From Thermotoga sp. Ku-13t (GTDB lineage Bacteria; Thermotogota; Thermotogae; Thermotogales; DSM-5069): DNA of 64,000 bases. This document shows, one piece after another, positions 31,295 to 56,673 of this stretch. The translations under genes were made by a program, and so were the position numbers. The stretch spans positions 181,810 through 245,809 of the forward strand of contig NZ_LNFY01000009.1 of the NCBI RefSeq assembly GCF_011057685.1, written 5' to 3'. A model generated the notes under the pieces. That model was not told the DNA's origin. It saw nothing but the letters and a program-made list of their open reading frames with translations, and searched no databases. Each line of letters begins with the position of its first letter. The stretch's first letter is position 1.

Positions 31295-31878
31295 AAGTAA
31301 TCGTCTGTCCTCGCGTTGAGCACCAGTTTATTGATCTTCACGCTTATCTTCTCTTCTTCGGACGGGCTGAGTATCTCGATCGATTTCAACTGTGAGTCTC
31401 TGATTTCGAGTCTCACTTTGATGGGTTCTTCCACCTGCTGCGCCACGAGTTTTGAAAATGTCAGGACGAGATAGCCATCTTCCGACCTCACACCGACCAG
31501 AGGTGTTTGCAACAATCTGAGTGCTGACAGAACAGATTGCACTATGTAAACGGTTGGTATGTCGATAGTTTCAAAGTCTTGCGATGTTCCGGTGCCGAAC
31601 ACGAGCCTCTTGATGCGTGAGAGATACATGAACGACAGATTCGAAAGAAAATCTGGTTTCTTCACAAGAAAATAAAAGTCCTCAAGGTTCCTGACCACGA
31701 GCAAACAAGATGTGTAAAAAATCCTGTTTTCACCGTTCTGCTTTATTTCCGCCGTCAGATCGAAATCCACAACGAAGTCCCTGACGCCTGCCAGCTGCTC
31801 GACAAGATCGAAGAGATAGTTTGCGGAGAAAGAGAGTACCGAGCAAACGACGAGCAAAGCGGTGAAGTATTTTTTCAT
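31279..31878 (-). CDS. secreted LolA-like protein at the end of the flagellar operon
   Basis: MKKYFTALLVVCSVLSFSA is a signal peptide. The rest (about 180 residues) alternates strands and resembles the LolA/LppX-type outer-membrane lipoprotein carrier fold (VRDFVVDFDLTAEIKQNG), but identity is weak by eye. Its start overlaps the fliY stop by four bases, so it is co-translated with the motor switch genes. A role in envelope or flagellar assembly is only inference. Confidence 0.6.
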   Translation of the reverse strand: MKKYFTALLVVCSVLSFSANYLFDLVEQLAGVRDFVVDFDLTAEIKQNGENRIFYTSCLLVVRNLEDFYFLVKKPDFLSNLSFMYLSRIKRLVFGTGTSQDFETIDIPTVYIVQSVLSALRLLQTPLVGVRSEDGYLVLTFSKLVAQQVEEPIKVRLEIRDSQLKSIEILSPSEEEKISVKINKLVLNARTDDYFQLPR

Positions 31879-32876: not shown

Positions 32877-33856
32877 TCTTCCACCTCCGGTTCGATGATC
32901 TTGGTGATCCTCACAGCCCTGTAGCCTTTGTAAGTTCCGGGTCTCGCCAGAAACTTGGGCTTACCCTGAACGTTCACCACGATGTCTTCGTCTTTGTGGG
33001 ACTTCAATCTGATCACATCCCCAACTTCCAGTTCCAGCACTTCCCGCACCGTCAGAATCGCTTCGCCGAGCACCGCACTCAAAACGGTGCTCATCTGGTT
33101 CAGGTTGGTCAGCAGATCCTTTTGCAGTTTTTCGGAAATCTGTTCTTTCTTAGCCACCTTGAACCAGTTACGGGAACTCAATCGGTCCATGAACGGTTCC
33201 GTTAGAGATGACGGCCAGCATACGTTCATGAAACCTTCAGTCTTTCCAATGGTCAGGAAGAGGGAAACCAGAAGGACCATCTCGCTCGGCGGGGCTATCT
33301 GTACGAACTGCGGATTGTTCTCGATGCTCTCTATCGTCGGCGAGAAACTGAAGACGTCGCTCCATGCCTGTGCCAGGTTCGCAAGGATGTTCATGATCTC
33401 CTTTCTCATGATGCTTATCTCTATCTCTGAAGGGGGTCGCTTGACGTTCGGAATGCCAGGTCCTCCGAGGATCAGATCCAGGATCGTGTAAAACAGCTCG
33501 AGGTTCATTTCGAGAATCGCACTACCAGCAAATTCGGGAGCCGAAAAAACAACTATGAACGCTGGGGCTGGCAAAGACCTTATGAACTCTTCGTAGGTGA
33601 TCTGGTCTATGCTCGCCAGGTTTATGCTCACGAAGGTTCTCACTCTACCAGACAGGTAAGTTGAGACCGAGCGCGCGAAGTTCTCATGTATCATGTCGAA
33701 CACGCGGATGTGTTCCTTCGAAAATTTGCTTGGTCTTCTGAAATCGTAGACCTTGACCTTCTTTTCTTCCCGCTTAATTTCCTCGGCCGAGAGTTCTCCA
33801 GATTTCAGTGCCTGCAACAGCCGATCTATTTCATCCTGGCTGAGGATGTCGGACAA
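32873..33856 (-). CDS. fliM: flagellar motor switch protein FliM
   Basis: FliM is the C-ring protein that binds CheY-P. The N-terminal SQDEIDRLLQ peptide, the CheC-like middle (GRVRTFVSINLASIDQITYEEF; FIVVFSAPEF) and the C-terminal SpoA domain (LELEVGDVIRLKSHKDEDI) are all present in 327 residues. It lies between fliL (14-base gap) and fliY. Confidence 0.95.
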   Translation of the reverse strand: MSDILSQDEIDRLLQALKSGELSAEEIKREEKKVKVYDFRRPSKFSKEHIRVFDMIHENFARSVSTYLSGRVRTFVSINLASIDQITYEEFIRSLPAPAFIVVFSAPEFAGSAILEMNLELFYTILDLILGGPGIPNVKRPPSEIEISIMRKEIMNILANLAQAWSDVFSFSPTIESIENNPQFVQIAPPSEMVLLVSLFLTIGKTEGFMNVCWPSSLTEPFMDRLSSRNWFKVAKKEQISEKLQKDLLTNLNQMSTVLSAVLGEAILTVREVLELEVGDVIRLKSHKDEDIVVNVQGKPKFLARPGTYKGYRAVRITKIIEPEVEE

Positions 33857-33870
33857 GCACCATCACCCCT

Positions 33871-34374
33871 TCACTCGACGGAGCTGATGGCCTTTATGTA
33901 CAGATAGACCCCTATGACTCCGAGCCTTTCTCTCTCACCCGTGAACCCGGTGACCTCGTTCACCATGGCTCGTATCTGTTTCTTGAGCAGTTCTATGCCT
34001 GCGGCCGTGTTGAGCTCCGATTTCTCCTTGCTCAGGAATATGAGCATGAGACTGTCCATGATCATGTCTCTGCGCTCCGCGATCGCGGCCCGGCACGCAT
34101 CGCTCGCCACCGTCAACGTTAAAGAATCTATCACGGCCACTTCCTTTCCACCCTTGAGCATGAACGTTGTGTAGGTGCCGGGTTGAATGACCACTGCCTT
34201 GATCTCGGTTGGGGCTTGCTGAACTGTTTGCTGTTTTGGCTGTGTCAGGTTCGTGCCCAGCAGCATGATCGTGACAGCGGTTGCACCAATGGCAACAACG
34301 GCCGGAACGATGATCGACATCAGTAAACCACCTATGCCCCTCTTCTTGGTTTCCTTGACCTCTTCGTCAGCCAC
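33871..34374 (-). CDS. fliL: flagellar basal body-associated protein FliL
   Basis: FliL is a single-pass inner membrane protein near the stator. A 20-residue cytoplasmic tail, one helix (about 20-40) and a periplasmic domain of about 120 residues are seen, ending in the usual LKKQIRAMVNEVTG pattern. It starts at GTG seven bases after AGGTGATG-type sequence, ten bases behind motB. 167 residues. Confidence 0.88.
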   Translation of the reverse strand: MADEEVKETKKRGIGGLLMSIIVPAVVAIGATAVTIMLLGTNLTQPKQQTVQQAPTEIKAVVIQPGTYTTFMLKGGKEVAVIDSLTLTVASDACRAAIAERRDMIMDSLMLIFLSKEKSELNTAAGIELLKKQIRAMVNEVTGFTGERERLGVIGVYLYIKAISSVE

Positions 34375-34384
34375 TCGTCATCAC

Positions 34385-35254
34385 CTACTTTGCCCTCTCG
34401 CGTTTTATGAGTATGTCTATCCTGCGGTAAACGTTCCGCAACTGGTTCAGACGGGCTTCGTAACGATTATCCAGCTCGCTCATCGAGGCTGTGTACTGCT
34501 CTCTCGAGATCTCTCCGGCTCTGAATTTTTCCAGGAGCAGGTTCCTTTCGATCTCTATTTCTTTCTGGAGAGTCTCTATCTCTTTTCTTATCGGCCAGTC
34601 TCCCATTCCTATAGGGTAGAACCTCTGAGGATCGTAGAAGTAGTCCGGGTCAAACCTGCCCGCCCTGACGTCTGCCAGTCTTTCAACAGCCCTGCGACGT
34701 TTCAATTCGTCCGTAAAAAATTGTATAACACTCGCGGCCCTCGCACTGCTCAAATGCCAGTTCGAAACGTAGATGGAATCTGCCGGGACCGGCCGATCGT
34801 CGGCATAGCCATAAACCTGTATCACGTTCGTCGTGTGCTCGATGATCAGAGAACCAATCCTTCCGAGCAACGTCTTCGCCTCGATTGTGAGCTTGGCACT
34901 CGCGGGCTCGAAGAACGCCATGTCCTGCATGATTATGACCGTACCTTCGTCCCTTTCCTGTATCGTGATCTTGCCCTTGTATTCTTCGGCGATCCTCATG
35001 AGTTCTTCGTAAACTCCCCGTCTTGAGGTGATGAGGGGTTCCTCTGCCAGGCTCTTTCCGCCCGTCAGAACGCTCGGTGGCATTCCCGTGAGAGGTGATC
35101 TCAGACCGACAGTGATCTGCTGGAACTTTCCGGGACTTATTGTGGACATGGAGAACAAAAGCACGAAGAACGTCAAAAGCAGTGTCACCATGTCACCGTA
35201 GGTGGTGAGCCAGCTCGCCTTCGGTGCCTCGTAGCTTCTCTTCTTTCGAGGCAT
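34385..35254 (-). CDS. motB: flagellar motor stator protein MotB with enlarged OmpA-like domain
   Basis: MotB anchors the stator to peptidoglycan. The single helix starts after WLTTYGD and carries the proton/sodium-binding aspartate at residue 21. The OmpA-like domain (about 105-289) has GYADDRP, SNWHLSSARA and RRIDILI. About 50 mostly charged helical residues (roughly 223-275, including EISREQY) are inserted before the final RRIDI motif, and a smaller insert precedes RFYPIGMGD. It follows motA with a one-base overlap. Confidence 0.9.
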   Translation of the reverse strand: MPRKKRSYEAPKASWLTTYGDMVTLLLTFFVLLFSMSTISPGKFQQITVGLRSPLTGMPPSVLTGGKSLAEEPLITSRRGVYEELMRIAEEYKGKITIQERDEGTVIIMQDMAFFEPASAKLTIEAKTLLGRIGSLIIEHTTNVIQVYGYADDRPVPADSIYVSNWHLSSARAASVIQFFTDELKRRRAVERLADVRAGRFDPDYFYDPQRFYPIGMGDWPIRKEIETLQKEIEIERNLLLEKFRAGEISREQYTASMSELDNRYEARLNQLRNVYRRIDILIKRERAK

Positions 35255-36042
35255 CAGGCAGCCTCCCTGCCGAGCGAAGCCTCGTAGGCCGCCTTTTCTT
35301 CAGCGGTGAGGAAGGATTTGAGCTTTTCTTCCAGAATCCTCGGGTTTTCTCCTGCCTGAATGGAGAGCACGCCCTCGAGGATCATCTGTTTCTGTCTCAG
35401 AATCTTTATCGCCCTCCTTCCGAGCTTCTCACCCATAGGTAAGAACACGGCGTTCGAGAGGATCGAACCGTAGAAGGTCGTGACCAGCGCGACAGACATG
35501 TTCGGCCCTATGGTTTCTGGGTTGTTCAAAGTCCTCAACATACCTATCAGACCGATGAGCGTTCCTATCATTCCGTACGCGGGGGCAAAAGATCCTGCCG
35601 AATCCATCATCGCCTTGTTCGCCATGAGGTCTTCTTCTATGAGGTCCATCTCGGCTTCCATCATGCTCTTCAAAAGTTCAGGATCCGTACCATCTATCAC
35701 CAGCTGCAACGCTTTTTTCATGAAAGGATCATCGATCTCGTTCAGGTTCTCTTCCAGGGAGAGCAAGCCTTCCCTTCTCGCCTTCTCCGAAAAAGACACG
35801 AGCGTTCTCACGAGTCCGATGTTGTCGATCTTTGGTTCTTTGAACGTGGACATGATCACACTGAGGATTCTAAAGCTTCTTTCCTTAGGGTGCGAGGCGA
35901 TCGTGGAGGCCAACGCGCCGCCGATCGTTATGAACACGGATGGCAGGTCCACGAAGGCGGATGGAGCAGATTTTCCGATGAATATGCCAAAGAATATCAT
36001 TCCGAAGGCCATCAACACTCCAAGGACCGTCGAAAGATCCAC
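35254..36042 (-). CDS. motA: flagellar motor stator protein MotA
   Basis: MotA forms the ion-conducting stator ring. Four helices are visible at about 5-22, 30-50, 150-172 and 183-203. The segment SFAPAYGMIGTLIGLIGML and the cytoplasmic loop between helices 2 and 3 are typical. The length of 262 residues is normal. It lies directly behind flbD. Confidence 0.94.
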   Translation of the reverse strand: MDLSTVLGVLMAFGMIFFGIFIGKSAPSAFVDLPSVFITIGGALASTIASHPKERSFRILSVIMSTFKEPKIDNIGLVRTLVSFSEKARREGLLSLEENLNEIDDPFMKKALQLVIDGTDPELLKSMMEAEMDLIEEDLMANKAMMDSAGSFAPAYGMIGTLIGLIGMLRTLNNPETIGPNMSVALVTTFYGSILSNAVFLPMGEKLGRRAIKILRQKQMILEGVLSIQAGENPRILEEKLKSFLTAEEKAAYEASLGREAA

Positions 36043-36045
36043 ACC

Positions 36046-36270
36046 TCATCCCTCCCTCTCGTGAGGGATATACCTGAGCAAATCGAGCACCGGATAGGCT
36101 TGCTTTTTGTATTCTATCACTCGGCGGACGACCTCTTCGACGCTTTCTTGCACGATGTATTTTTTGCCGTTGAAGAGCGTTATCGTCGTGTCCGGTAGGG
36201 CTTCAACTGTTTCTATCATCTCGGCGTTGAGCACGAACCTCTGGCCCTTGAGGCGCGTCAGCCAGATCAT
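36046..36270 (-). CDS. flbD: FlbD-family flagellar protein
   Basis: This 74-residue protein matches the small FlbD family (IWLTRLKGQRFVLNAEMIE at the N-terminus; TITLFNGKKYIVQE). It commonly lies between flgE and motA in spirochaetes, Firmicutes and Thermotogae, as here. The function is not well established. The stop is three bases from motA. Confidence 0.9.
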   Translation of the reverse strand: MIWLTRLKGQRFVLNAEMIETVEALPDTTITLFNGKKYIVQESVEEVVRRVIEYKKQAYPVLDLLRYIPHEREG

Positions 36271-36281
36271 CGCGCATCACC

Positions 36282-37952
36282 TTATCTCCTCAGTGCAACG
36301 AGTTCGCCGAGTATGGTGTCGGCGGTGGTTATGACCCTCGCGTTCGCCTGAAATCCCCTCTGAGCGATGATCATCCGTGTGAACTCTTCCGCGAGATCCA
36401 CGTTCGACATCTCGAGCGCGCCAGGGATGAGTGTGCCTCTGCCACCACTTCCCGCGGTCCCTATCTGTGCCAGTCCACTGTTCGCAGACGGTAGATACAG
36501 CGAGTTGCCAACCTCAGTCAATCCCGCAGGGTTGTTGAAGACCGCGAGCGCTATCTGTCCGAGTACATCGGTCAAACCGTTGCTGAAGGTGCCTATTATC
36601 TCACCGTTCTCGTTTATGGCGAAAGATTGCAACATTCCCAGGGCGTTTCCGTTCTGCCAGGTGAACGAAGCGCTGTTGGCGCCGGCGAACTGGGTGAGTG
36701 CTGTAAGATCGAGGTTGATCTTCACAGTGCCATCACCCATGTGTGAGGCGTCGAACTGGATGGTTCTCATTTCGGTGTTGCCGACGGTGAAGTCAGTTCC
36801 ATCCCAGTTGAAACCGTACATGACCGTGATGCGTCCAGAATCGTTGAAGTTGATGATACCACCTGCATAGTCTTCGTTGCTGTTGGCATCGATATAAGTT
36901 ATGGGTTCACCGCTCGCTGTATAAACTCTCCAGATCCACGCGTTGTTCATGCTGTTGAACTTTCCGAGTCTGATGAACTCGATGTACAGAGAATACGGAT
37001 TTCCGAGCGTGTCGTAGACCTGAACTGCGGTCACGTACCTTGGACTGTTGAACTGCGCCGTGACAAAGTTGGAAGGATTGTCGGATTCGTAGAATCTGAT
37101 CTCACCGGCGGTGGGGATGGTGATCTCGGCACCAGTACCAATGCTTGTTATTTCACTTCCTGTTCCTCCGGTTTCTACTGCAGCTTCGACCACCCTTCCA
37201 AACTGGTTGATCACGATGTAACCACTGGCGATCTGGTTGTTGCTTTCATCGTACACCTTCCAGGTGTATCTCTGATTCTCCGCGAACGGATCGTCCTGAG
37301 CTTCGATGTCAACCTCAGTTTTTGAAAAGACAAACCTCACCGTGTGCTGTTTACCCTTGTCGTCCGTGACGGTCATGGAAAAAGGAAGTATTCCAGAAGT
37401 TGAGTTCAAATTACCTTCCATCCTCGCAGCGGTCGTTGCCCTCGCTGGCATGGTCATTCCCGCACTTATGACTATGTCTCCTATTGGCTGGTTCGTGTCG
37501 ACGTAGCGTGAGCCTGTGATCGGATCCTGTATGGCGCGCCAGCCCTGAACCTTCAAGCCTGTAGAGGCATGGATCAGCGTGCCGTTCATGTCCACGTCGA
37601 GCGCTCCGGCGCGCGTGTAGTAATAACCGCGACCATCGCTGAGCACGAAGAACCCATCACCCTGTATCGCGAGATCGAGTTTTCTACCCGTGTTCTGGAA
37701 CGAGCCCTGCGTCATAACCTTGTCCACGGTTGCGAGCTGTGAACCGAGCCCAATCTGTATCGGGTTGGTACCTCCAACGTTGTTCTGTGGGGCGCGTGCG
37801 GCCTTCAGAGTTTGGAGCAAAGCGGTTTGAAAGGTGACGCGCGAACCTTTAAAACCAACAGTGTTGACGTTGGAGATGTTGTTACCGATCACATCCAGTT
37901 CGTACTGGAAGTTTCTCATACCAGAAACGCCACTGAACATCGAGCGCATCAT
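36282..37952 (-). CDS. flgE: flagellar hook protein FlgE
   Basis: FlgE polymerises into the hook. The N-terminal rod/hook signature (GNNISNVNTVGFKGSRVTF, about 24-42) and the C-terminal EMSNVDLAEEFTRMI followed by QRGFQANARVITTAD are intact. The middle (about 150-430) is the variable surface domain. The length of 556 residues is larger than enteric FlgE but usual in this phylum. Confidence 0.95.
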   Translation of the reverse strand: MMRSMFSGVSGMRNFQYELDVIGNNISNVNTVGFKGSRVTFQTALLQTLKAARAPQNNVGGTNPIQIGLGSQLATVDKVMTQGSFQNTGRKLDLAIQGDGFFVLSDGRGYYYTRAGALDVDMNGTLIHASTGLKVQGWRAIQDPITGSRYVDTNQPIGDIVISAGMTMPARATTAARMEGNLNSTSGILPFSMTVTDDKGKQHTVRFVFSKTEVDIEAQDDPFAENQRYTWKVYDESNNQIASGYIVINQFGRVVEAAVETGGTGSEITSIGTGAEITIPTAGEIRFYESDNPSNFVTAQFNSPRYVTAVQVYDTLGNPYSLYIEFIRLGKFNSMNNAWIWRVYTASGEPITYIDANSNEDYAGGIINFNDSGRITVMYGFNWDGTDFTVGNTEMRTIQFDASHMGDGTVKINLDLTALTQFAGANSASFTWQNGNALGMLQSFAINENGEIIGTFSNGLTDVLGQIALAVFNNPAGLTEVGNSLYLPSANSGLAQIGTAGSGGRGTLIPGALEMSNVDLAEEFTRMIIAQRGFQANARVITTADTILGELVALRR

Positions 37953-37958
37953 GGTGAT

Positions 37959-38621
37959 TCATCCCTCCTGTGAAATTTCGATAACGGATGTCAAGGGATA
38001 CTCTCTTCCGCTCACGTACACGAAGATCTGGTTGTTTTTGAATTTGACAGACTCCACAACGCCTGCTTGCACACCGCCTATCGTCACTTCACCGCTCGAG
38101 GTGATCTTGCTCACCGTGTAGGTGTAGGTGCCATCGGCTACGGGGAAGCCTGAATCGTCCTTCGCATCCCACACGTAGGCGTGAACGCCCACATCGAGCA
38201 CGCCGCTCGTAGCTTGCTTAACGAGGTTTCCGTTCGAGTCGTAGATCCTGACAACTACGGGTGCTTTTTCGTCGAGCTCGAACACGATGCTTTCAGCTTG
38301 CTGATTGGACACGATGATCTGGTTCGACTGCACCACGACGTGTTTTCCGATCAGCGAAGCGGCCTGTGCCTGGAGTGCTCCCTGCTGAAGCTTCAAGAAA
38401 TCCTGTATGGACTTGGTCATGTTGGTGATCTGTTCGAGCGTGGAGAACTGGGTGAGCTGTGCGATGAACTCTCTGTTCTCCATGGGTTCCAGAGGGTTCT
38501 GGTTCTTGAGCTGTGTGACGAGTAAAAGCAGGAACGCGTTTTTGTCCAGTTCTTTGCTCGCCGTTCGCTGAGAAGAAACGTAGAAACTGGTGTAAGGATC
38601 AATCGGATTTATCATCTTCAT
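37959..38621 (-). CDS. flgD: flagellar hook assembly protein FlgD
   Basis: FlgD is the hook cap that scaffolds FlgE assembly. The N-terminal FLLLLVTQLKNQNPLEPMENREF segment is diagnostic, and the C-terminal FlgD Ig/Tudor-like part (VRIYDSNGNLV ... YVWDAKDDSGFPVADGTY) follows. 220 residues. Its start lies inside the end of fliK (23-base overlap). Confidence 0.94.
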   Translation of the reverse strand: MKMINPIDPYTSFYVSSQRTASKELDKNAFLLLLVTQLKNQNPLEPMENREFIAQLTQFSTLEQITNMTKSIQDFLKLQQGALQAQAASLIGKHVVVQSNQIIVSNQQAESIVFELDEKAPVVVRIYDSNGNLVKQATSGVLDVGVHAYVWDAKDDSGFPVADGTYTYTVSKITSSGEVTIGGVQAGVVESVKFKNNQIFVYVSGREYPLTSVIEISQEG

Positions 38622-40617
38622 CGCCCTCCCTATGTCTTTGCTGGCGCTGTTGCTGGTCTTCGAACTGCTGATTCTGCTCCTTTTCTTCGCCGGTCTGTTC
38701 CTGTTCGAACCTCGGGTTCATCCTGACTTCGATCTGCTCGACCTTGAAACCTAGACTGGATAGTCTGGAGATCAATTCCTTAGAACTGTTTTCGATGAGT
38801 TCTCTGGCTTCCGGTGTGGAAACTTTCATGAGGATGGTCAATCTGTCCTGCTGTTTGACGAGCTCTATTTCGAGCTTTCCGAGCGATGGTGGTGAAAGCT
38901 GAATTTCGGCCTTCTCCGTGAAAGTGTCTCTGAGCTGTTTGATCGTTTCAACGATGGTTTGAAGATTGTCAGAGCCTTGTTCTCGCTCCACTCTCAGAAC
39001 CACCTGATCGATGCTTTTTTCTTCAACTTTGATGTGCTGAATGGCTGGCTGTTCATGTTCGTAGGCTTTCTTCGCCAGCTTGCTGTTCAGAGCTTCCTTC
39101 AGCTGTTCGGCACTCTCGATCCTTTCGGTTTTCACCTGGAGCGGTTCCTGATCGATCTGTTTGATCTCTTTCGCGATTGTGAGCTTGAAGGTCTCTATCT
39201 TGATCGGCTCTGTGACTTTGATCGTCTCCGGAAGTTCCCGTTTCACGTGCCTGAGCTGGGTCGGTTCGCTGCTCACTTTTTCCACGTAGCGAGAAAGGTT
39301 GTCGACAATCAACCTCACCTGTGTAGCGCTCAGTACTGCCACGGGCTGGGTTTTAGATTGAACGAGTGAGGGACCTGTTTTCGTTGAAGAATCGCTCTTC
39401 ACACCGTTCGATTCGATCTGAACCTGCTGTGCGAAGAGCACGATCCTGTGTCCAGCCGGCTTGATCATTTCTGCTTCTATAGACTCGCTCTCGGGTTTCG
39501 TATCTGAAGTTTTTGGGATGTTCTGTATCGAGGCTTTCTTCAAAAGCTGGTTCTGTTCGGTCTCTTTCTCTCCCTTCAGCTCAATCGGGTGGTTTTTCAC
39601 CTTCAACCGATTCTCTGAAAAGACCGTTGTCAGGTTTTCCTGTCGCGATGATAGTGATTGTGTGAAAAGCTTGGATATCGCTTGTTCATTCGGTGAATTC
39701 ACATGCATGGGGATGTTGAATGAATTTGCCTGAACTTTTGTATCTTCGGCTTGCGTTTGGATCAGCGTGAGGTTTTGCTGCCGGATCGGCGTGTCGTTTT
39801 CAGCCAGAACGCTCTTTCTTACTTGCAACAGATCAACAGCGTGGTGAGTTTCACGAATGGTGAAATTTTGAACGTTTCGATCCGAAGTTTCTTTTTTCTG
39901 CGAAGCAGAGCCAGTCTGGGCAAACTGGAACGCTTCAGCACTGCTCTGGTTCACGGTTGTTCTCTGCATGTTTGAAGTATCGTTACTTGAAAACTGAGAT
40001 GTTTGTTTTTGCACATCGGCCGGCTTCAAAATCTTTGCGTTGTGAACGAGATCACGTTTTAACTGCAAGGCAAACTCGATCCTTTCATTTCGGGAAGACT
40101 CAGGATCGGACAATCTGGCCGAATCGACATTTTCTGAATCCTTTTTCTGTTCCGACGCATTGTGATCGTCGCTCGGTGGCTTTATGGAAGAAACTGTTCC
40201 CATCTGGTTCGATCGGTTCTGCACCGTGGAGACGTTGTCTTTTGAAAGTTGAACAGTGCGGTTTGCTTCGTTCTGGACCGGATCGTTCCTAGCTTTAGCA
40301 GCAGTCTTATCCAGATATTCTTTCGAGCCCTGATCCGTGATTGTTTTGAGAATCAGAGCGTCAGCCTGTTTAGAGATATCTTCTACCGTTACAGAGTTCG
40401 AAGGCTTCACATCGTTCTGTAGAACCGGTGGAGTGGTTTTCTTCGAATCTTCCTGTATCGATCCCTGTGCGTTCAAAGCGTTTTGCAGCGTGAAGAAGCC
40501 TTCGTTCTGCTGGTTCATGATCCTCTGCTGAACAAGTTTCAAAACTTCTGCAAAGGAGATTGAACCTTTCTTGGCGAAATTGTTATTCTCGACAACGATC
40601 TGCATTTGCTCGTTCAC
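38599..40617 (-). CDS. fliK: flagellar hook-length control protein FliK
   Basis: FliK measures hook length and triggers the export switch. The 672-residue protein has a long low-complexity, Q/N/S/K-rich region up to about 540. The conserved hook-length domain follows (AEIQLSPPSLGKLEIELVKQ and LSSLGFKVEQIEVRM). The C-terminus is very Q/E/R-rich. Sequence composition in the middle differs from its neighbours, as is usual for FliK. It lies between the motE-like gene and flgD. Confidence 0.9.
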   Translation of the reverse strand: MNEQMQIVVENNNFAKKGSISFAEVLKLVQQRIMNQQNEGFFTLQNALNAQGSIQEDSKKTTPPVLQNDVKPSNSVTVEDISKQADALILKTITDQGSKEYLDKTAAKARNDPVQNEANRTVQLSKDNVSTVQNRSNQMGTVSSIKPPSDDHNASEQKKDSENVDSARLSDPESSRNERIEFALQLKRDLVHNAKILKPADVQKQTSQFSSNDTSNMQRTTVNQSSAEAFQFAQTGSASQKKETSDRNVQNFTIRETHHAVDLLQVRKSVLAENDTPIRQQNLTLIQTQAEDTKVQANSFNIPMHVNSPNEQAISKLFTQSLSSRQENLTTVFSENRLKVKNHPIELKGEKETEQNQLLKKASIQNIPKTSDTKPESESIEAEMIKPAGHRIVLFAQQVQIESNGVKSDSSTKTGPSLVQSKTQPVAVLSATQVRLIVDNLSRYVEKVSSEPTQLRHVKRELPETIKVTEPIKIETFKLTIAKEIKQIDQEPLQVKTERIESAEQLKEALNSKLAKKAYEHEQPAIQHIKVEEKSIDQVVLRVEREQGSDNLQTIVETIKQLRDTFTEKAEIQLSPPSLGKLEIELVKQQDRLTILMKVSTPEARELIENSSKELISRLSSLGFKVEQIEVRMNPRFEQEQTGEEKEQNQQFEDQQQRQQRHREGDEDDKSD

Positions 40618-44260: not shown

Positions 44261-45319
44261 TCAATTGCTCACGACGATCTTCGAACGGCCCTTCTTGGCC
44301 ATGTAAAGTCTTTCGTCTGAAAGGCGCATCAGTTCGGCCAGTTCACCACCGTCTTCCGGAAAAGAGGCGATGCCGACGGACGCACTCAAATCGAAAACGA
44401 GATCTCCCACTTTTATGGGTTCTTCTATAGCCTTTATGAGCCTTTCTGCGAGGAGCTTTGCCTTTGGTTTTGAACAGTCGTACGCCAGTATCACGAACTC
44501 GTCTCCCCCGAACCTCGATACCATGTCGCTCGATCTCACATACCTTTCGAGCCTGCCGGCGACGCGTTTCAAAACCTCATCTCCTGTGTAATGCCCGTAC
44601 AGATCGTTCACACTCTTGAACTTGTCAAGGTCGAGGAACAGAACACTCAGCGTTTTTTCTTCTCTCTTAGCAAGCAAAAGCATCTTCTCGGCGAACTCTT
44701 CGAACATTCTCCTGTTTGGAAGTCCCGTCAGAGCATCGTGGTAGGACATGTATTCAAGCAGCCGGTTCTTTTCCATGAGTTTTCTTTCGAGTTCGAGCCT
44801 TTTGAAGATCAAACCGAGCAGATTTGCGAGCATCCTGGTGATGATGACAGAGTTACTGTCAAACGCCTCGCCGCTTTCAAAATTGTCCAGATTCAGCACC
44901 AGCCTGAGTTCACCTGCGACTCTCACGGGTATGACGAGTGTGGATTTTACTTTTCTTAGGCTGCCGGCTTCCTTCAACACTTCGAGCCATTCATCCTTCA
45001 CAACAGTTTCGTCGAACGCAATTACGTCGTCCCTGACGAGAATAACATGATCCTTATCCTTTCCAACCCAGATTTCTTCCTCTTCAACGCTGAAGCTGAT
45101 TTTCTTGAGTTGTTCGAGATCGTACCCAACCGCCGCAACGTATTTGAATCTGCCCTCTTCTTTCACGAGTATCGAACCGGCCTGGGCGCCGGGTACAATC
45201 CTGATGGACTTTTCCAAGGTTTTTTGGTAAACATCCTCTGTTTGCTCGTTCAGGAGCATCGATGCTATCGCGCCTAATTCTCTGAATACCTCCACGCATG
45301 CTTCAAGATTTTTTGACAT
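44261..45319 (-). CDS. GAF-GGDEF diguanylate cyclase
   Basis: The product should make cyclic-di-GMP from two GTP. A GAF-type sensory domain covers about residues 20-160 (PGAQAGSILVKEEGRFKYVAAVGYD). The GGDEF domain covers about 190-350, with an intact RFGGDEF active site. An RSSD inhibitory site lies five residues before GGDEF, suggesting product feedback inhibition. It has no membrane helix, so it is cytosolic. It begins two bases after the stop of the HD-GYP gene, pairing synthesis and breakdown. Confidence 0.92.
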   Translation of the reverse strand: MSKNLEACVEVFRELGAIASMLLNEQTEDVYQKTLEKSIRIVPGAQAGSILVKEEGRFKYVAAVGYDLEQLKKISFSVEEEEIWVGKDKDHVILVRDDVIAFDETVVKDEWLEVLKEAGSLRKVKSTLVIPVRVAGELRLVLNLDNFESGEAFDSNSVIITRMLANLLGLIFKRLELERKLMEKNRLLEYMSYHDALTGLPNRRMFEEFAEKMLLLAKREEKTLSVLFLDLDKFKSVNDLYGHYTGDEVLKRVAGRLERYVRSSDMVSRFGGDEFVILAYDCSKPKAKLLAERLIKAIEEPIKVGDLVFDLSASVGIASFPEDGGELAELMRLSDERLYMAKKGRSKIVVSN

Positions 45320-45321
45320 AC

Positions 45322-46092
45322 TTATTCCCAGCCCTTCTTTTCGACGATTCTCAAAAAGACTCCCACAACCTTCGGGTCGAACTGTTTATTGACATCTTCT
45401 TTGATGTATTCTATCGCCTGCTGTTCTGGCCACGCCTTTCGGTAGGGCCTGTCGTGTGTGAGAGCGTCGTACACGTCCACAACAGCGAAAATTCTCGCAG
45501 CGAGGGGAATTTCTTCTTTTTTCAACCCTCTTGGATAACCGGTTCCGTCGTACCTTTCATGGTGACAGTAGGGTATATTGAGCGCCGGTTTGAGATATTC
45601 GATTTTGGAGAGCATTTCGTATGCGTAAACCGGATGCATTTTCATTATTTTCCACTCCTCATCACTCAACCTGCCAAGTTTCCGCAGTATATGATCGAGA
45701 ACCGCCAATTTACCTATGTCGTGTAGGAGCGCTCCTCTGTAGACATGGACGAGCTCTTCTTCGTTCATGAACTCCTTCGCGATTTCAACGGTCAATGCCG
45801 CTATCCTTTTGCTGTGTCCCTCCGTTTCTTCATCCCTCAAGTCTATCGCATAGACCAGAGCTTCGATGGTTTCATCGTACGCCTTGAACAACTCAATGTT
45901 GGTTTTTTCGAGCTTTTCGATCATGAAGACTCGTTCTATCGCTATGGCCACCTGTTGAGTAATACCTATCCGCCTCGAGCCTGTGCACCTCGCGGTTCTG
46001 GAAGCGATCGTTTGTGTGAACCTATCCGTCAAACCCTTTCCGAGAGAGTATATCAGAACTTTCTTGTTGGGATCGAACAGCAGGACCGCCAC
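45322..46092 (-). CDS. HD-GYP phosphodiesterase with collapsed GAF region
   Basis: The C-terminal HD-GYP domain is intact (HDIGK and HHERYDGTGYPRGL). The N-terminal GAF domain is not: after VAVLLFDPNKKVLIYSLGKG the sequence reads RFTQTIASRTARC and jumps to QQVAIAIERVF, the usual end of a GAF domain, so much of its middle is missing or scrambled. The natural N-terminal continuation lies in another frame just upstream (46093-46235). The GTG start at 46092 is therefore a leftover start. The catalytic part might still work. Confidence 0.75.
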   Translation of the reverse strand: MAVLLFDPNKKVLIYSLGKGLTDRFTQTIASRTARCTGSRRIGITQQVAIAIERVFMIEKLEKTNIELFKAYDETIEALVYAIDLRDEETEGHSKRIAALTVEIAKEFMNEEELVHVYRGALLHDIGKLAVLDHILRKLGRLSDEEWKIMKMHPVYAYEMLSKIEYLKPALNIPYCHHERYDGTGYPRGLKKEEIPLAARIFAVVDVYDALTHDRPYRKAWPEQQAIEYIKEDVNKQFDPKVVGVFLRIVEKKGWE

Positions 46093-46238
46093 AACGTCGG
46101 CTCTGACACGTTCAGGCTTTCTTTCAGGTTCGTCGACGTGAGGATCGCTCTATCAATCCTCTGTACAGATTGAAGCTTCTGAAAATTGTTCTTCAGGTTC
46201 TCGAACAGTCTTGCGTCCTGCAGAGTCACGAGGAGCTA
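46093..46238 (-). pseudogene. 5' remnant of the degraded GAF/HD-GYP gene
   Basis: The third minus-strand frame encodes LQDARLFENLKNNFQKLQSV then QRIDRAILTSTNLKESLNV, which is the standard linker and GAF entry of such sensors, before losing frame about 20 bases upstream of the HD-GYP ORF. A stop lies at 46236-46238 and the rest of the original 5' region is absent, replaced by the end of the H-NOX chemoreceptor gene. Confidence 0.6.
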
Positions 46239-46275
46239 AGAATAGAGAATCTCGAAAATCACCGAACTGTGAGGA

Positions 46276-48096
46276 TCACAGGATCATCCCTTCGAAATTT
46301 TCCTTTATCATCGAGAGCAACTTGATCGTTTCGTTCACGCTGTCGAGCACGACTTTGAGTTGCGCAAAGAAGTTCTGTATCGAAGAACTTATCTCTTCTG
46401 CCGTCGCGGAGCTCTCTTCGGAGATCGCGAGCAAATTCTGAATGCTGCTCGTTATGCTGTTGAGTTTGCCAGCTTGCTCGTTCAGGGTGTCTATCAACTC
46501 GTTGAGTTTGCGCGATATGCTGGAGATCACGTTGCTGGATTCTTTGTTTTTCTCGGAGCTTTCCAGCAGCCTGCTTGATTGTTCTTTCATCTCGTTGAAC
46601 TCTGACTGAATGGTTTGAACCAGTCTGTCGATACCAGTGTTTATGGACGAGAGGAATTCGGCTATCTTCGAAGAAGAATTTCGACTCTCCTCGGCGAGCT
46701 TTCTTATCTCGTCTGCCACCACAGCGAAGCCTCTTCCCGCTTCCCCACTCCTCGCAGCTTCTATAGCCGCATTGAGTGCCAGCAGGTTGGTCTGTTCCGC
46801 GATGCTCGACACGGTCGCCGCAACTTGCATGATCATACCAGCCTGTTCCTGTAACTTTTTTGCTTCTTCCACGAGGTTGGAGAACCTCTGACTCATTTTG
46901 ACTATGCCGTCTGCGGATTGCTCAACATTGTCCGCCGAACGGACGATCAGTGAAACGGCTTCGTTGAGAGATTTCACGATCTGCGTTTGTTCAGATATGA
47001 TCGAAGTGATGGTTTCAACGTTCGACGTCACCGCGTTCGAGATTCTCTCGGTGTCGTTGCTTATCTGCACCGCTGTGTTGGCTATCTCGTTCGAAAGTGC
47101 ACCCATAGTGTCGAGCTGTTCTCTCATGCTGTTCACCGCATCTATCACCTTTGACGAGTAGGTGCTTATCTCCTGGATGTCACCGGATATTCCCAGGAAC
47201 ACTTCCTTTATCTTCTCCACAGAATCGTTCAAGCTTTCAGAAAGATCGGAGAATTCTTTCACGTTGCCGATCGAAACGGGGCTATCGAAGTTTTTCCTGG
47301 AGATCAACCCCACAGCTTCTCTCAGGACCTTCAAACCTTTTTCCAGACCTTTGACGTCAAAAAACATCAAAGCAGAAATTCCCAGGGCGCTGATGATCGA
47401 TCTGCTGAGATTCCCAGCTGGTACGAAGGTGAAAACGAGGAACACAATGAGAAAACTGAACAACGGGATCATCAGCACGTGGATGGGAAGGATCGATTTG
47501 ATGAATCCGAAACCCAAAATCGTCAGGCTCCTGAGCTTTTCGAATCTTCCGTACGCTTTTGTCGCCTCTATTTCAACTTCGAGGAAGTTCTTTCCGCCGT
47601 CGCTGCCATCCTGTAAAACTCTGTACTTTATTGGATCGTTGAAGAATTCAGAAGCTGCTTCCATCAGACCCAGAAAGTAATTTTTGAAATTTCTCCTCGA
47701 TTCGTACCTCACGATCGCTCTGTGGGAATCGACCAGTTTGAAGAAGACTCTCGGTGGCGTCGCACCCTTGATCCTTCTTGTCAGCACCCTATGAACCGCG
47801 TCCATCGCGGCCATGAATGAAAGGAAGCTCGATTTCTTGAAATATTCAGGGTAGTGTTCGAAGAACGTCCTCAGATTTTCCTTACCCGTTCGATACCAGA
47901 GTTCCTCGTAGGTGAGATTTTTCATCGTTGCCAGTTCCTTCGACATGTTCACGGGTAAATCGTCCGGCACGTCTTCGACGGGCTTGTAGAAAGTGTCGAG
48001 CGGTACACCGTACTTTTCCTTCAACCTTTTCACGGTCTCTGCTCCGAACATTCTGGACCAGGTCTGCAACCAAACGTTGACGATGAAACCTTTCAT
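46276..48096 (-). CDS. H-NOX (haem) methyl-accepting chemotaxis protein
   Basis: The cytosolic N-terminal 180 residues form a haem-binding H-NOX domain fused to two membrane helices (about 215-260) and a chemoreceptor signalling domain with the hairpin tip [40 protein letters not shown]. Haem-pocket residues are all in place: proximal H102, P115, Y131/S133/R135 (YxSxR), and distal W9, N74 and Y140. Their numbering equals that of the O2-binding H-NOX of Thermoanaerobacter. An oxygen-sensing chemoreceptor is therefore inferred. GGGAGGGAAAGAGC precedes the ATG; the HD-GYP gene lies 22 bases upstream. Confidence 0.93.
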
Positions 48097-48118: not shown

Positions 48119-49432
48119 TCAGATTCGTTCCAGTTCCAGGTTGATCATCCGGCTCACTTCATCAGTATTCTCGTAGAACAGCTCTTCAAACACGTGCTTG
48201 AAGGAGATTTGTTCCTTGAGGTCGTAGTTGCGGGCTATTTCCTTGAGCTTTTCAAAGATGTCAGCATCGAGTTTACCGTGTTCGACCTCTTTTTCGATCA
48301 CCCCGAGCGCTTCTTCGATGGTCAACGCGTTTCGGTATGGTCTTTCCTCCACGAGCGCAGAAAAAACATCGCAGATCTGGATCATTTTCTGGTGGTAAAG
48401 CAACTGTTCATCTGTCAATCCGAGAGGATAACCGCTTCCATCGAGTCTCTCGTGGTGCGCCGCACCGATGATGGAAAAAACTCTAAGGCCTGCACGCTCC
48501 AGCATGTAGTACGTATCGACCACATGCCTTTTCATGATCACGAGTTCTTCAGAATTGAGTCTGCTTCTTTTGTGCAGTATGCTGAGTGGAGTCTTAATTT
48601 TTCCTATGTCGTGAAGCAGGGCAGATGTGATGATCAAAGTTACGTCTGCGTCTCCCAGGGTTTCTTCATTGAGTATTTCCGCCACCCTGGTGCAGGCGAA
48701 GGTATGGTTTCTCGTGTACGGGCTGCGAAAGTCCAGCAAGGTGGCCATTATTCTGGCGAGCTGTTTGAAATCTGTAATGTCCAGTCTCTGGTCGGAATCG
48801 AAGCACAGATCATCGTCGATGATTATAGAATTCGTGCGCACATCCAGCAATAGATCGATCGCGGCTTTCCTCACCTCGTCCAGTATGCCTGCATCTTTCT
48901 TGATCGAAGAAATCAGATCAGCGAAGAACTCTGCGTCCAGTTCTTTGTTCGTCTCTTCTTGTTTCAGGGTGGCGAGCGAGATCAAATCGGCCGTTTTGAT
49001 GCTGTTGGACAGAAGGATCAGATCATCGTCTTCCTTTATCTTTTGAAAAGGTGTGTGGTGATAGAGAATGGCCCTCGCACAGACGGGACAGAAAGGTTTA
49101 CTCTGGCGCGCTATCATGTAGGAGATGATTGAGTGCTGATCGTGCCTGTCAAACGTTATCACTATCCTTTCTAAGTCTGGAACCCTTCTGAACATGTCGG
49201 CGAACAGTTCGTAATTTTCGACCGACGCCTTCAAAACTAATCCGAGGTCATGGAACAGGCCTGAAAAATAAGTGTTATCTCTATTGTAAGGAAGGTCCAA
49301 CCTCTCTGCGATTTTCATCGTTAATTTTGCTACCTGCACGGAATGTTTCACAAAGTACCTGTATTCTAAGACTCTCATTTCATTGAAAAGCATGACGAAA
49401 GATTTGAGAGGTACTTTGATCGTGAGATCCAC
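48119..49432 (-). CDS. tandem HD / HD-GYP phosphodiesterase
   Basis: The 437-residue protein has an N-terminal HD-type domain (about 25-180: [25 protein letters not shown], with a CPVC pair) and a C-terminal HD-GYP domain (about 230-410: [19 protein letters not shown]). It probably breaks down cyclic-di-GMP. No signal peptide or membrane helix is present. It starts at GTG behind GAGGTGAGAAGGC and is followed by the H-NOX chemoreceptor gene, so both may share one promoter at 49464-49492. Confidence 0.88.
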
Positions 49433-51846: not shown

Positions 51847-51877
51847 CAAATTGAGAAAGCCTTCAGGGGGTGATCTT

Positions 51878-52390
51878 GTGAGGGAGATGACGAAGAAGTT
51901 CCTCGAGGACGCCTTCGCGGGAGAAAGCATGGCACACATGAAGTATCTCATCTTCGCAGACGAAGCCGAACAGAAAGGGCTCAAGAAACTCGCGAACCTG
52001 TTCAGAGCCATCGCTTATGCTGAATTTGTCCATGCACGGAATCATTACAGAGAACTTGGAAAAATCTACAGGGAAATGCCTGAGAACGTGCAGCAGTGCA
52101 TCGATGGCGAAACGTTCGAGATCAACGAGATGTATCCTGTTTACAACACAGTAGCACAGTTCCAGCAGGAGAAAGGTGCGGAGAGAAGCACGAAGTTCGC
52201 CTGGGAAGCTGAGAAGATCCATGCGGAGATGTACAAGAAAGCGAAGCAGCTCGTCGAAAAGAAAGAAGACTATCCAGCCGCGAAGATCTACATCTGTTCT
52301 GTCTGTGGCCACACGATCGAGAACGAACCACCCGAGAAATGCCCGGTCTGTGGGGCATCGAAGAACTCCTACAGGGAGTTTTCCGTTTGA
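51878..52390 (+). CDS. rbr: rubrerythrin
   Basis: Rubrerythrin reduces hydrogen peroxide. The 170-residue protein has a ferritin-like di-iron domain (FAGESMAHMKYLIFADEAE; AIAYAEFVHARNHY; EAEKIHAEMY) and a C-terminal rubredoxin-like domain with two CxxC pairs (ICSVCGHTIE; KCPVCGASK). The GTG at 51878 follows GGGGGTGATCTT; the ATG at 51851 lies upstream of that site and is rejected. It is first in the operon with superoxide reductase and rubredoxin. Confidence 0.95.
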   Translation: MREMTKKFLEDAFAGESMAHMKYLIFADEAEQKGLKKLANLFRAIAYAEFVHARNHYRELGKIYREMPENVQQCIDGETFEINEMYPVYNTVAQFQQEKGAERSTKFAWEAEKIHAEMYKKAKQLVEKKEDYPAAKIYICSVCGHTIENEPPEKCPVCGASKNSYREFSV

Positions 52391-52402: not shown

Positions 52403-52798
52403 ATGAAACTGGCAGATTTCATCAAGAGTGAAGATTTCAAGAAAGAAAAGCACGTTCCGGTCATCGAGGCACCCGAGAAGGTAAAGAAGAACGAACCAGT
52501 CCAAATCACGGTCACCGTTGGGAAAGAGATTCCGCATCCAAACACGACGGAGCATCACATCAGATGGATCCAGGTCTTTTTCCAGCCAGATGGTGATCCC
52601 TACGTTTACGAGGTGGGAAAGTACGAGTTCAGCGCGCATGGTGAGTCCGTCCAGGGTCCGAACACAGGCGCAGTTTACACAGAACCTGTTGTGGTGAGCA
52701 AACTGAAGCTGAACAGATCTGGAACGATATTGGCGCTGTCTTATTGCAATATACACGGTCTTTGGGAAAGCAACAAGAAGATCGTCGTTGAAGGATGA
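52403..52798 (+). CDS. sor: superoxide reductase (neelaredoxin)
   Basis: The enzyme reduces superoxide to peroxide at a single Fe(His)4Cys site. Ligands are visible: H17 in KHVPVIE, H45 and the HH pair near 51-52 (TEHHIRW), and C115/H118 in SYCNIHGLW. At 131 residues it lacks the N-terminal desulforedoxin domain, so it is the one-iron type. GGAGGGGAAAGC precedes the ATG. It lies 12 bases after rubrerythrin. Confidence 0.95.
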   Translation: MKLADFIKSEDFKKEKHVPVIEAPEKVKKNEPVQITVTVGKEIPHPNTTEHHIRWIQVFFQPDGDPYVYEVGKYEFSAHGESVQGPNTGAVYTEPVVVSKLKLNRSGTILALSYCNIHGLWESNKKIVVEG

Positions 52799-53056: not shown

Positions 53057-54355
53057 GTGGAGCATAAAGAAAAGGTGGAACTTTTCAAGACCATTTTGAA
53101 AAAACTCCATCAGGGTGAGAGCATCGAATCTCTGAAGAGAGAGTTCGGCGAAATCATTTCCAGGCTTTCACCTTTCGAGATACCCGCGATCGAGCAGGAA
53201 CTCCTCAGGGAAGGCGAGATAACGGTGAGAGACATCGTGAAGATGTGCGACCTTCACGTGGAACTGTTCAGGGGAGCAGTGAGCGGGGCAGCGAGGGAGA
53301 TCGAGAAACTTCCCCAGGGTCATCCTCTGAGGAACCTGTTCGAAGAAAACAAAGAAATCCTGAAAGATTCAGAAGCGCTCTCTCTGCTGGCTTCGACTGC
53401 TTTTTCAGTTCCTGAAGGAGAAAAGAGAAACGAATTTTTGAGCAGGTTGAAGGAACTTTTGAGACAGATGAGGAACATAGGGTTCACACATTACACGAAA
53501 GAAGAGATGCTTGTATTCCCTTATCTGGAAAGAAGAGGGATCACCGCAGTGCCGAGCGTCCTCTGGTCCAAGCACGACGAGATAAGGTTAAAGATAAAAG
53601 TGGTTCTGGATCTGTACGAAACTTCAGAAGATGAAGAACGTCTGAGGAAAGAATCGCTCGAGCTGTCACGCATGGTGGCGGACATGGTCTTCAGGGAGAA
53701 CAACATCCTCTATTCCACTTTGCTGGTGCTCCTTTCGGAAGGTGAGTGGGCTGCTGTGAGCCAGTTCGAAGAGGAGATCGGCTTCTACAAGATCGATGTG
53801 AAGAGAGAATGGCAACCGTCGCAGAAACCGTTGTTACCGTTCGAGATAGACCCCAAGGTGGACGAAGAAACCTACCGAAAAATGCCGGAAGAAGTCAGAA
53901 GAGTCGTCGGTACACTCACCCCAGACAACTACGTGGTCCGTAAAGAAAACGATCTCGAATTTGAAAATGGTTTTCTCAACGTTGAAGAACTCGAAACCAT
54001 CTTCAGAACCCTGCCAATGGACATCACTTTCATCGATAATAACGACAGGGTCAGGTTCTTCTCACACGGCCAGAGGATATTCCACAGGGCCGCCACGGTC
54101 ATAGGAAGACCCGTTCAGTTCTGCCATCCACCGAGGAGCGTGCACATCGTCAACAAGATCTTGAAATCCTTCAAAGAGGGAAGAAAGCAGGTGGCGGAGT
54201 TCTGGATAAACCTCGGTGGAAGGCTGGTTCACATAAGATACTTCCCGGTTCATGGCAGAAACGGCGAATATATAGGAACACTGGAACTCGTCCAGGACGT
54301 CACCGACATCAAAAAGCTTGAAGGTGAAAAGAGGTTGTTGGACTGGAAAGACTGA
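53057..54355 (+). CDS. DUF438-hemerythrin-PAS protein
   Basis: The 432-residue protein has an N-terminal DUF438-type helical domain (about 1-75), a hemerythrin HHE-like helical domain (about 85-240, with H in GHPLRNLF, THYTKEE and KHDEIR) and a C-terminal PAS domain (about 305-425, FIDNNDRVRFFS ... ELVQDVTDIKKLE). It may bind O2, NO or iron and signal through the PAS domain, but no output domain is present. The GTG start has GGAGGGAAAGGTCT upstream. It lies behind the rubredoxin terminator without an obvious promoter. Confidence 0.85.
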   Translation: MEHKEKVELFKTILKKLHQGESIESLKREFGEIISRLSPFEIPAIEQELLREGEITVRDIVKMCDLHVELFRGAVSGAAREIEKLPQGHPLRNLFEENKEILKDSEALSLLASTAFSVPEGEKRNEFLSRLKELLRQMRNIGFTHYTKEEMLVFPYLERRGITAVPSVLWSKHDEIRLKIKVVLDLYETSEDEERLRKESLELSRMVADMVFRENNILYSTLLVLLSEGEWAAVSQFEEEIGFYKIDVKREWQPSQKPLLPFEIDPKVDEETYRKMPEEVRRVVGTLTPDNYVVRKENDLEFENGFLNVEELETIFRTLPMDITFIDNNDRVRFFSHGQRIFHRAATVIGRPVQFCHPPRSVHIVNKILKSFKEGRKQVAEFWINLGGRLVHIRYFPVHGRNGEYIGTLELVQDVTDIKKLEGEKRLLDWKD

Positions 54356-54375
54356 TTATAAATTTTTCAGTCCAA
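54338..54375. terminator. hairpin between convergent DUF438 and rubredoxin reductase genes
   Basis: TTGGACTG pairs with CAGTCCAA across a 22-base loop containing a T6 run. It overlaps both 3' ends. Weaker than the other terminators and with a long loop. Confidence 0.35.
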
Positions 54376-55446
54376 TTCTTTTCTGAGCCTCTCTTCCCAC
54401 ACACGGGCTTTGTTGATATCCTCGAGAACAACGACACCGACGATGCGACCGTCCTCATAAAAAGCTCTGGTGTGTTCGTCTATCCACCTGGGCTCACCTT
54501 CGAGGCGGCCAAGGATCGCCACCGGCAGGTCAGCGAATTTGAAGTAGGAAGATCTGAACTGAAAGTCGAATTCGTCGGAGAGTCCGTTCAGAATGTTCGC
54601 CAGCACCTTTGCCTGGTCCATGGCCGCCTTTGCCGTGCCCGAAATGATCCCCTCGAATTCGGCGCAGTCTCCTAAGGCATAAACGTTCGGCAGAGACGTT
54701 CTGAATTTTTTGTCGACGAGAACGCCTCTATTCACTTTCAGACCACTTTCCCTCGCGAGCTCGATCTCTGGAACGATACCGATCGCGCAGAGTATCAACC
54801 TTGCGGGGATCTCTTCTTTGTCCGTCACGAGGATGTCTTTCTCTATCCTTTCGATGTCCCTGCCGAGGAAGAACTCAACATTGTAGCTTTCGAGCCTTTC
54901 TTTTATCCTCTCGGTCAGCTCCTTCTCAAGGTTAAGCAGAGAGTTTGTCTTCTCAACCACCTTGATTCTGTAGCCTTTTTTCGCAAGGTTCCCGGCCAGT
55001 TCCAGTCCGATGAAGCCCGCCCCAACGATCAACAGTTCTTTCTCTTTTTCGAGCCTTTCTTTCAACCTCTCTGCATCCTGCCAGGTTCTCAATGTGAGTA
55101 TGTTCTCCGCGCCGGGCACTGGTATCCTTCGGGCCCTGGCGCCCGTTGCAAGCACGAGCACATCGAAACTCAGAGCACCCGCGTCGGTGTGAAGGATCTT
55201 ATTTTCGGCGTCGATCCTTCTCGCTTCCGTCTTGAGGAGCAGCTCTATGCGGTTCTTCCTGTACCAGTCCAGCGAATACGGAAACAGCTGTGACTTATCG
55301 ACGTCTCCCGCCACGTAGTGGCTCATCATGGGCTTGACGTAGTAAGGTATTTCTTCTTTCTCAACGATCGTCAAATCGTGTTCTTTCGCCAGACGTTTCG
55401 CGAGTTCCACCCCACCGGCTCCGTTCCCAACGATCACGACTTTCAT
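54367..55446 (-). CDS. nror: NAD(P)H:rubredoxin oxidoreductase-like flavoprotein
   Basis: This 359-residue FAD/NAD(P)-binding enzyme has VVIVGNGAGGVELA at the N-terminus, LVLATGARARRIP, the second dinucleotide motif LLIVGAGFIGLELAGNL and VYALGDCAEF. Its size and lack of a redox-active CxxC fit the NADH:rubredoxin reductase group. It follows the flavodiiron gene directly. The ATG at 55446 is spaced eight bases from GGAG; a GTG at 55455 is closer to the upstream stop and less likely. It probably feeds electrons to rubredoxin for O2 reduction. Confidence 0.85.
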   Translation of the reverse strand: MKVVIVGNGAGGVELAKRLAKEHDLTIVEKEEIPYYVKPMMSHYVAGDVDKSQLFPYSLDWYRKNRIELLLKTEARRIDAENKILHTDAGALSFDVLVLATGARARRIPVPGAENILTLRTWQDAERLKERLEKEKELLIVGAGFIGLELAGNLAKKGYRIKVVEKTNSLLNLEKELTERIKERLESYNVEFFLGRDIERIEKDILVTDKEEIPARLILCAIGIVPEIELARESGLKVNRGVLVDKKFRTSLPNVYALGDCAEFEGIISGTAKAAMDQAKVLANILNGLSDEFDFQFRSSYFKFADLPVAILGRLEGEPRWIDEHTRAFYEDGRIVGVVVLEDINKARVWEERLRKELD

Positions 55447-55451
55447 ACCCT

Positions 55452-56648
55452 TCACTCCAGTTCCTTCAAAAGTGCTTCTATCGCCTGCTTCATTTTTTCT
55501 TCATCGATTTTGCCACCTTTCGTTTCGACGAACGACACGAACTTGAATTTCGAATCTTTCAAGATTTTTTTCACCGTGAGTTCGACGGACGCCGCCCAGC
55601 CGTGAACGCCGAAGAAGAGCACGGGTTTTTCGTAGTTCGCCTTGTCCATGATCTCGTAGAGGACGTATCTCATCTTGGGATGGATGTCGGCTTCGTAGGT
55701 CGAAACACCGAACACAAGCGCGCGACTGTCGGGCACATCTTTCAAGATTTCACTCACGGGAGAGTCATGTTGATCGGTGAATCTATAAACAACAAGATTG
55801 AATCCCTTTTCCCTCAGCGTGTCCAAGACTTTGTTCATCACGTTCTCGACGAAGCCGTACATGGAATCGTAAACGACGAGGATTTTCCTTTTTTGAGCCA
55901 CGCCGTTTGCGACGTTCACATAATGTTGCAGAAGTCTTTGAGGATCTTTCTTCCATATCAGTCCGTGGCCGGGCAACAGAGCTTTTATGTCAAGGCTCGA
56001 TAATTTCTTCGCCCCCTCCAGGATGTAGCCTTTGTAATGTCCTATCACGGTCACGATGTATTTGGTCACGTACGGAAGATACTCCTCCACAGTTCTTTCG
56101 TCCGAATCGTCGATGGCTGATGGTAAAGAATAACCTCCTCCAACGTCGCAACCGAACAGAACGCCGTCCAGATAGGTCACCATCGTGTCAGGCCAGTGCA
56201 ACCAGGGAGTCATGACGAAACGGAAGGTTTTTTCACCAATTTGCATCTGCTGGTTGTCCGAGACTGCTTCCACGTTAGTGATGTTGTAAAAGCTTTCAAG
56301 AAGCTTCTTGGCGAAGTTCGAAGCGATCACCTTCGCTCTGTTCTTGTTCGCGTTCAGGATACCAGGAAGCGTTCCACTGTGGTCCGGTTCGGTGTGGTTG
56401 ACGATGATGTGTGTGATATCCTTTGGATCGATGAGGTTCGAAAGCGCTTTGAGGAAATCGTTGCTGTAGCTTTCTTTCCAGCCATCGATCAAAACGTTTG
56501 CACCGTTCAGTTTCACAAGATAAGCGTTGTAGCTGATACCCTCTGGGATGTCCCAGCTGGCCTCGAAGTATTTGATTTTTTCGTCGTCGATCCTCAGAAG
56601 ATAAACCTCTGGATCGGTGAAAATCCTTTCGATCCAAACCTTTGCCAT
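55452..56648 (-). CDS. fprA: flavodiiron protein (oxygen/NO reductase)
   Basis: Flavodiiron proteins reduce O2 to water or NO to N2O. The 398-residue product has a lactamase-like di-iron domain with ligands in NHTEPDHSG, PWLHWPDTM, FGCDVGGGY and LPGHGLIW. A C-terminal flavodoxin domain follows (VVYDSMYGFVENVMNKV; VFGVSTYEADIHPKM). The ATG at 56648 sits behind AGGAAGGTGTGACG, so the frame from 56672 is rejected. Electrons should come from NADH through the next gene and rubredoxin. Confidence 0.95.
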   Translation of the reverse strand: MAKVWIERIFTDPEVYLLRIDDEKIKYFEASWDIPEGISYNAYLVKLNGANVLIDGWKESYSNDFLKALSNLIDPKDITHIIVNHTEPDHSGTLPGILNANKNRAKVIASNFAKKLLESFYNITNVEAVSDNQQMQIGEKTFRFVMTPWLHWPDTMVTYLDGVLFGCDVGGGYSLPSAIDDSDERTVEEYLPYVTKYIVTVIGHYKGYILEGAKKLSSLDIKALLPGHGLIWKKDPQRLLQHYVNVANGVAQKRKILVVYDSMYGFVENVMNKVLDTLREKGFNLVVYRFTDQHDSPVSEILKDVPDSRALVFGVSTYEADIHPKMRYVLYEIMDKANYEKPVLFFGVHGWAASVELTVKKILKDSKFKFVSFVETKGGKIDEEKMKQAIEALLKELE

Positions 56649-56673
56649 CGTCACACCTTCCTTTCTGGTCATT

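Follow-up and report, generated by a model that had tools for sequence, protein, structure and literature searches.

What would an anaerobic thermophile do with an oxygen-binding haem receptor, and where would the haem come from if the cell appears unable to make it? The question is raised by a chemoreceptor gene of Thermotoga sp. Ku-13t, a member of a Pseudothermotoga-type family of the Thermotogota, which lies in the 64,000-nucleotide stretch of DNA analysed here (the window). A single open frame on the minus strand (46276..48096) encodes a 606 aa protein that the initial annotation described as an H-NOX domain fused to two membrane helices and a chemoreceptor tip, a layout borne out by Pfam searches and a Kyte-Doolittle scan. 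The H-NOX domain spans residues 1-178 (47563..48096, minus strand), with Pfam HNOB matching residues 2-159 at 7.4e-39 (135.1 bits against a cut-off of 25.5) and covering 162 of 163 profile positions. Two adjoining membrane segments follow at approximately residues 201-228 and 230-251 (47344..47496, minus strand), essentially without a periplasmic domain, and then an MCP signalling domain at residues 395-555 (46432..46914, minus strand; MCPsignal 1e-33, 117 bits), with its canonical hairpin tip at 437-468. Because the two hydrophobic segments adjoin with practically no loop, we predict that the H-NOX sensor is cytoplasmic and that nothing sizeable is exposed outside. By profile search this is the only H-NOX copy in the genome. 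CheA is encoded in the same genome (G000:C10), and the window carries a run of flagellar genes (FliM/FliN-type, FliM, FliL, MotB, MotA, FlgE, FlgD and FliK; 31875..40617, minus strand).

Ten residues had been proposed to form or line the haem pocket (I5, W9, N74, H102, P115, Y131, S133, R135, Y140 and L144), and all ten fall at the claimed, equivalent alignment positions. Across 41 aligned homologues, W9, N74, H102, P115, Y131, S133, R135 and Y140 are invariant, while I5 and L144 are not. The alignment thus contains the proximal H102, P115 and the Y-x-S-x-R haem-propionate motif that mark the H-NOX family, as well as the distal Y140 backed by W9 and N74 that marks its O2-type (Tt-like) members. 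In the prototype Tt H-NOX, the O2 triad described in the literature consists of Trp9 and Asn74 together with Tyr140 (PMC7356049). A PDB sequence search with the receptor matched only Thermoanaerobacter/Caldanaerobacter H-NOX entries, the best at 1.8e-31. Structure prediction, suggested as a check in the initial annotation, was run with AlphaFold2 on the alignment of 41 homologues, and the model was compared with the PDB by Foldseek. The H-NOX domain was modelled at a mean pLDDT of 92.2, and Tt H-NOX (1u4h) ranked first with a TM score of 0.93, whereas NO-type H-NOX and guanylate cyclase scored at most 0.82; the top 45 matches were all H-NOX proteins or H-NOX-bearing chains of guanylate cyclase. 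The conserved residues and the Tt-like predicted fold uphold the assignment of an oxygen-type H-NOX domain on a chemoreceptor.

Among the closest known systems is the Tar4-type H-NOX chemoreceptor (PDB 1u4h and 1xbn) of Caldanaerobacter subterraneus, formerly Thermoanaerobacter tengcongensis. The Ku-13t protein shares with it domain order, length, haem ligand, the Y-S-R motif, W9/N74/Y140, I5 and L144 in addition to the predicted fold; however, the two are about 33% identical and the Thermotogota copies form a clade of their own. The neighbours also differ, as the Thermotogota genes have an HD/HD-GYP gene upstream (in the window's family) or rubrerythrin and superoxide reductase genes downstream (in family f10), and the short stretch examined around the Caldanaerobacter gene showed no such O2-defence genes. 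The NO-type H-NOX proteins of the facultative anaerobes Shewanella and Nostoc and the beta subunit of soluble guanylate cyclase have the same fold and haem-holding motifs, but are more distant from the Ku-13t domain (TM about 0.75-0.82, about 20% identity) and, to our knowledge, neither possess the distal tyrosine nor act as chemoreceptors. Among aerotaxis receptors, the Aer2-type and globin-coupled ones likewise join a soluble haem sensor to an MCP tip, but their sensors have PAS or globin folds rather than H-NOX; the Aer2 model matches the Ku-13t receptor in the shared MCP part only (residues 312-577).

The search across Thermotogae that the initial annotation had called for was extended to 103 Thermotogota and 398 Bacillota genomes, and found H-NOX in 46 and 40 of them, respectively. 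Judged by its sequence, the Ku-13t receptor is not unique; it belongs to the known O2-type H-NOX chemoreceptors, which are widespread in the Thermotogota. All but one of the 46 copies read from Thermotogota relatives are fused to a chemoreceptor, and the fused copies all keep W9, N74, H102, P115, Y-S-R and Y140, two of them being incomplete (one at a contig end, one with a frame break). The same residues, triad included, occur in 34/34 fused Bacillota copies read, a few of which are identical, and the triad is absent from two standalone Bacillota copies. Among the copies read, fusion to a chemoreceptor is accompanied by the O2 triad without exception, and none of the three standalone H-NOX proteins from the two phyla has kept it. 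The one standalone copy found in the Thermotogota (G004; L056:3537-4058, G004:C269) carries Leu at position 9 and Phe at position 140, and it clusters with the standalone H-NOX proteins of Bacillota.

Maximum-likelihood analysis places all 46 fused Thermotogota copies, the window's among them, in one clade (support 100/99) with family-level structure. The gene is thus long established in the phylum and did not reach it recently from the sampled Bacillota. H-NOX was found in 45 of 79 CheA-positive Thermotogota genomes versus 1 of 24 CheA-negative ones, and that single genome is only 60% complete; these counts ignore phylogeny. A receptor type usually discussed from one Firmicute example now extends across a phylum of anaerobic, mostly thermophilic bacteria. 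The open-access literature has treated the H-NOX chemoreceptor of Thermotogota little, with one passing mention of Thermotogae found. As a separate observation, one family f10 genome (G046) carries, besides a normal H-NOX chemoreceptor elsewhere, a second and divergent one (L068:8137-9966, G046:C4) on a long branch, with M at positions 5 and 144.

The window was also said to be rich in O2-reduction genes, and this holds for a cluster at 51851-56672. It comprises a rubrerythrin-like protein (51851..52390, plus strand; NCBIfam nigerythrin/rubrerythrin matches below cut-off), a neelaredoxin-type superoxide reductase (52403..52798, plus strand; TIGR00332 at 1.2e-32, over cut-off), a DUF438-hemerythrin-PAS protein identified by profile search (53057..54355, plus strand), an NADH:rubredoxin-oxidoreductase-like flavoprotein (54367..55455, minus strand; best NCBIfam match NorW at 1.1e-55, below cut-off) and an FprA-type flavodiiron protein (55452..56672, minus strand; flavorubredoxin at 7.2e-51, below the equivalog cut-off). 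The hemerythrin-PAS protein inside this cluster may be a further sensor of O2 or redox state, one that works without haem. The rubrerythrin and neelaredoxin genes lie 3.7 kb from the receptor gene in the window. The arrangement is tighter in family f10, where in nine genomes the H-NOX receptor gene is followed downstream, after a gap of 92-148 bp and in the same orientation, by rubrerythrin and then neelaredoxin, with a flavodiiron protein next in one of the nine. Outside family f10 this link is seen only in the looser form of the window and its sister genome G058; it is absent from the neighbourhoods of 36/46 Thermotogota relatives, some of them cut by contig ends, and was not found at Bacillota H-NOX loci, most of which were seen with only 1.5 kb flanks. 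The genomic context, especially the rubrerythrin and superoxide reductase neighbours in family f10, supports O2 sensing. Through this link to O2 defence, an O2-sensor role that is undemonstrated in the prototype becomes testable.

The evidence supports the presence of a predicted O2-type H-NOX chemoreceptor in a flagellar, CheA-bearing member of the Thermotogota near O2-defence genes, and the receptor probably lets this anaerobe detect O2 through a haem group. We consider it reasonably likely that the protein works as a membrane-anchored receptor through which haem-bound O2 signals by way of MCP and CheA to the flagella, so that the anaerobe leaves O2 while defence proteins remove it. By analogy with the Tt prototype, H102 and the Y-x-S-x-R motif of the cytoplasmic H-NOX domain would hold ferrous haem, and O2 would be hydrogen-bonded by Y140 with the support of W9 and N74. 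Bound O2 would change the shape of the haem and the domain, and this change could be relayed by the two-helix anchor to the MCP tip, to CheA and to the flagellar motor. We speculate that the response would be repulsion, so that the cell swims out of oxygenated zones while O2 is removed by rubrerythrin, superoxide reductase and flavodiiron proteins. The haem itself would presumably be scavenged, given the apparent inability of the cell to synthesize it.

The ligand in vivo could instead be NO (or CO), with the Y140 pocket binding NO tightly as well and the O2 complex being a by-property. NO, CO and O2 all bind to the Tt prototype, for which O2 sensing is presumed but stated to be not yet demonstrated (PMC9814294). 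We nevertheless regard NO or CO as an unlikely ligand, since W9/N74/Y140 are strictly kept in the fused copies but not in the standalone ones, and since the neighbours are rubrerythrin and superoxide reductase rather than NO-specific genes. The neighbours are not fully decisive between the two gases, as FprA-type proteins can reduce NO as well as O2.

The cofactor raises a second alternative, that the pocket holds no haem b in nature and that the protein is a receptor for haem or porphyrin availability, carries another tetrapyrrole or is mostly apo-protein. HemB is absent from the Ku-13t genome, which is 99.5% complete, and from 99/103 Thermotogota; HemC is likewise absent from Ku-13t and was found in the same four genomes as HemB, and ferrochelatase in 0/103 genomes. 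As every haem route we know of requires HemB and HemC, de novo haem synthesis looks impossible in Ku-13t, and with ferrochelatase missing too, haem loading of the receptor in vivo is not guaranteed. A HemW-like protein (TIGR00539) was set aside, being present in 103/103 genomes and hence uninformative. The gap in HemB and ferrochelatase recurs in one genome of Caldanaerobacter subterraneus, the species of the prototype, whose H-NOX structures in the PDB are of recombinant protein and so do not settle haem loading in the native cell. Absence of HemB was rejected as a general correlate of H-NOX, given that 27 of 40 H-NOX-positive Bacillota have HemB versus 224 of 398 overall. Cytochrome bd, a further potential haem user, was over cut-off in no H-NOX-bearing Thermotogota genome. 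Against these gaps stands the invariance of the O2 triad and of H102, P115 and Y-S-R, implying that selection maintains a site for a metal tetrapyrrole that binds O2; haem scavenging, too, is established in haem auxotrophs of other kinds. Together this makes a pocket without haem b improbable in our judgement.

Given the gene complement of the cell, the receptor has to work with scavenged haem, with some other cofactor or with no cofactor at all; since the invariant haem ligands suggest that the domain holds a metal tetrapyrrole, scavenged haem is the best inference. Our preferred reading, O2 sensing through haem, would then mean that an apparent haem auxotroph carries a haem-based O2 receptor, which gives the protein added interest. 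It raises the question of how organisms with no recognisable haem pathway, the species of the textbook prototype included, load such a receptor. More tentatively, and with somewhat less than even confidence, we hypothesize that this is an old, phylum-wide haem O2 receptor in bacteria that do not make haem, which would work only with the haem of other organisms, so that its signal would reflect both O2 and the supply of outside haem reaching it by an import and delivery route. No open-access paper was found that mentions H-NOX, haem synthesis and Caldanaerobacter together.

The initial annotation placed the receptor next to HD-GYP and GGDEF genes, which is correct for two of its neighbours. Upstream by 22 nt lies a gene for a 437 aa protein with HD (HDOD-like) and HD-GYP domains (48119..49432, minus strand; HD_5 at 2.9e-29), a probable co-transcribed partner of the receptor as judged from the gene arrangement, and a diguanylate cyclase with GAF-like and GGDEF domains is encoded at 44261..45319 (minus strand; GGDEF at 5.6e-46). 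The downstream HD-GYP gene (45322-46092) is a decayed remnant of a PAS/GAF-type gene, the remnant as a whole spanning 45322..46256 on the minus strand; by comparison with sister genome G058 (L031), where an intact gene encodes 766 aa, about 1.4 kb of the N-terminal half is gone and the frame is broken. A main output through c-di-GMP with the upstream HD/HD-GYP protein, rather than through chemotaxis, is very improbable, for although most family f1 genomes, as well as G092 of family f3, have a full-length orthologue immediately upstream of the H-NOX gene (overlapping or up to 24 nt away), it is not beside the H-NOX gene in families f2 or f10, the canonical MCP tip is kept and CheA co-occurs.

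Among the Thermotogota, cytochrome bd exceeds the cut-off in just four genomes, all of one genus that has no H-NOX. The presence of subunit I of this oxidase (L128 and L129; G008 and G009) in genomes that yielded neither HemB nor HemC nor ferrochelatase points to another apparent haem user that does not synthesize haem.
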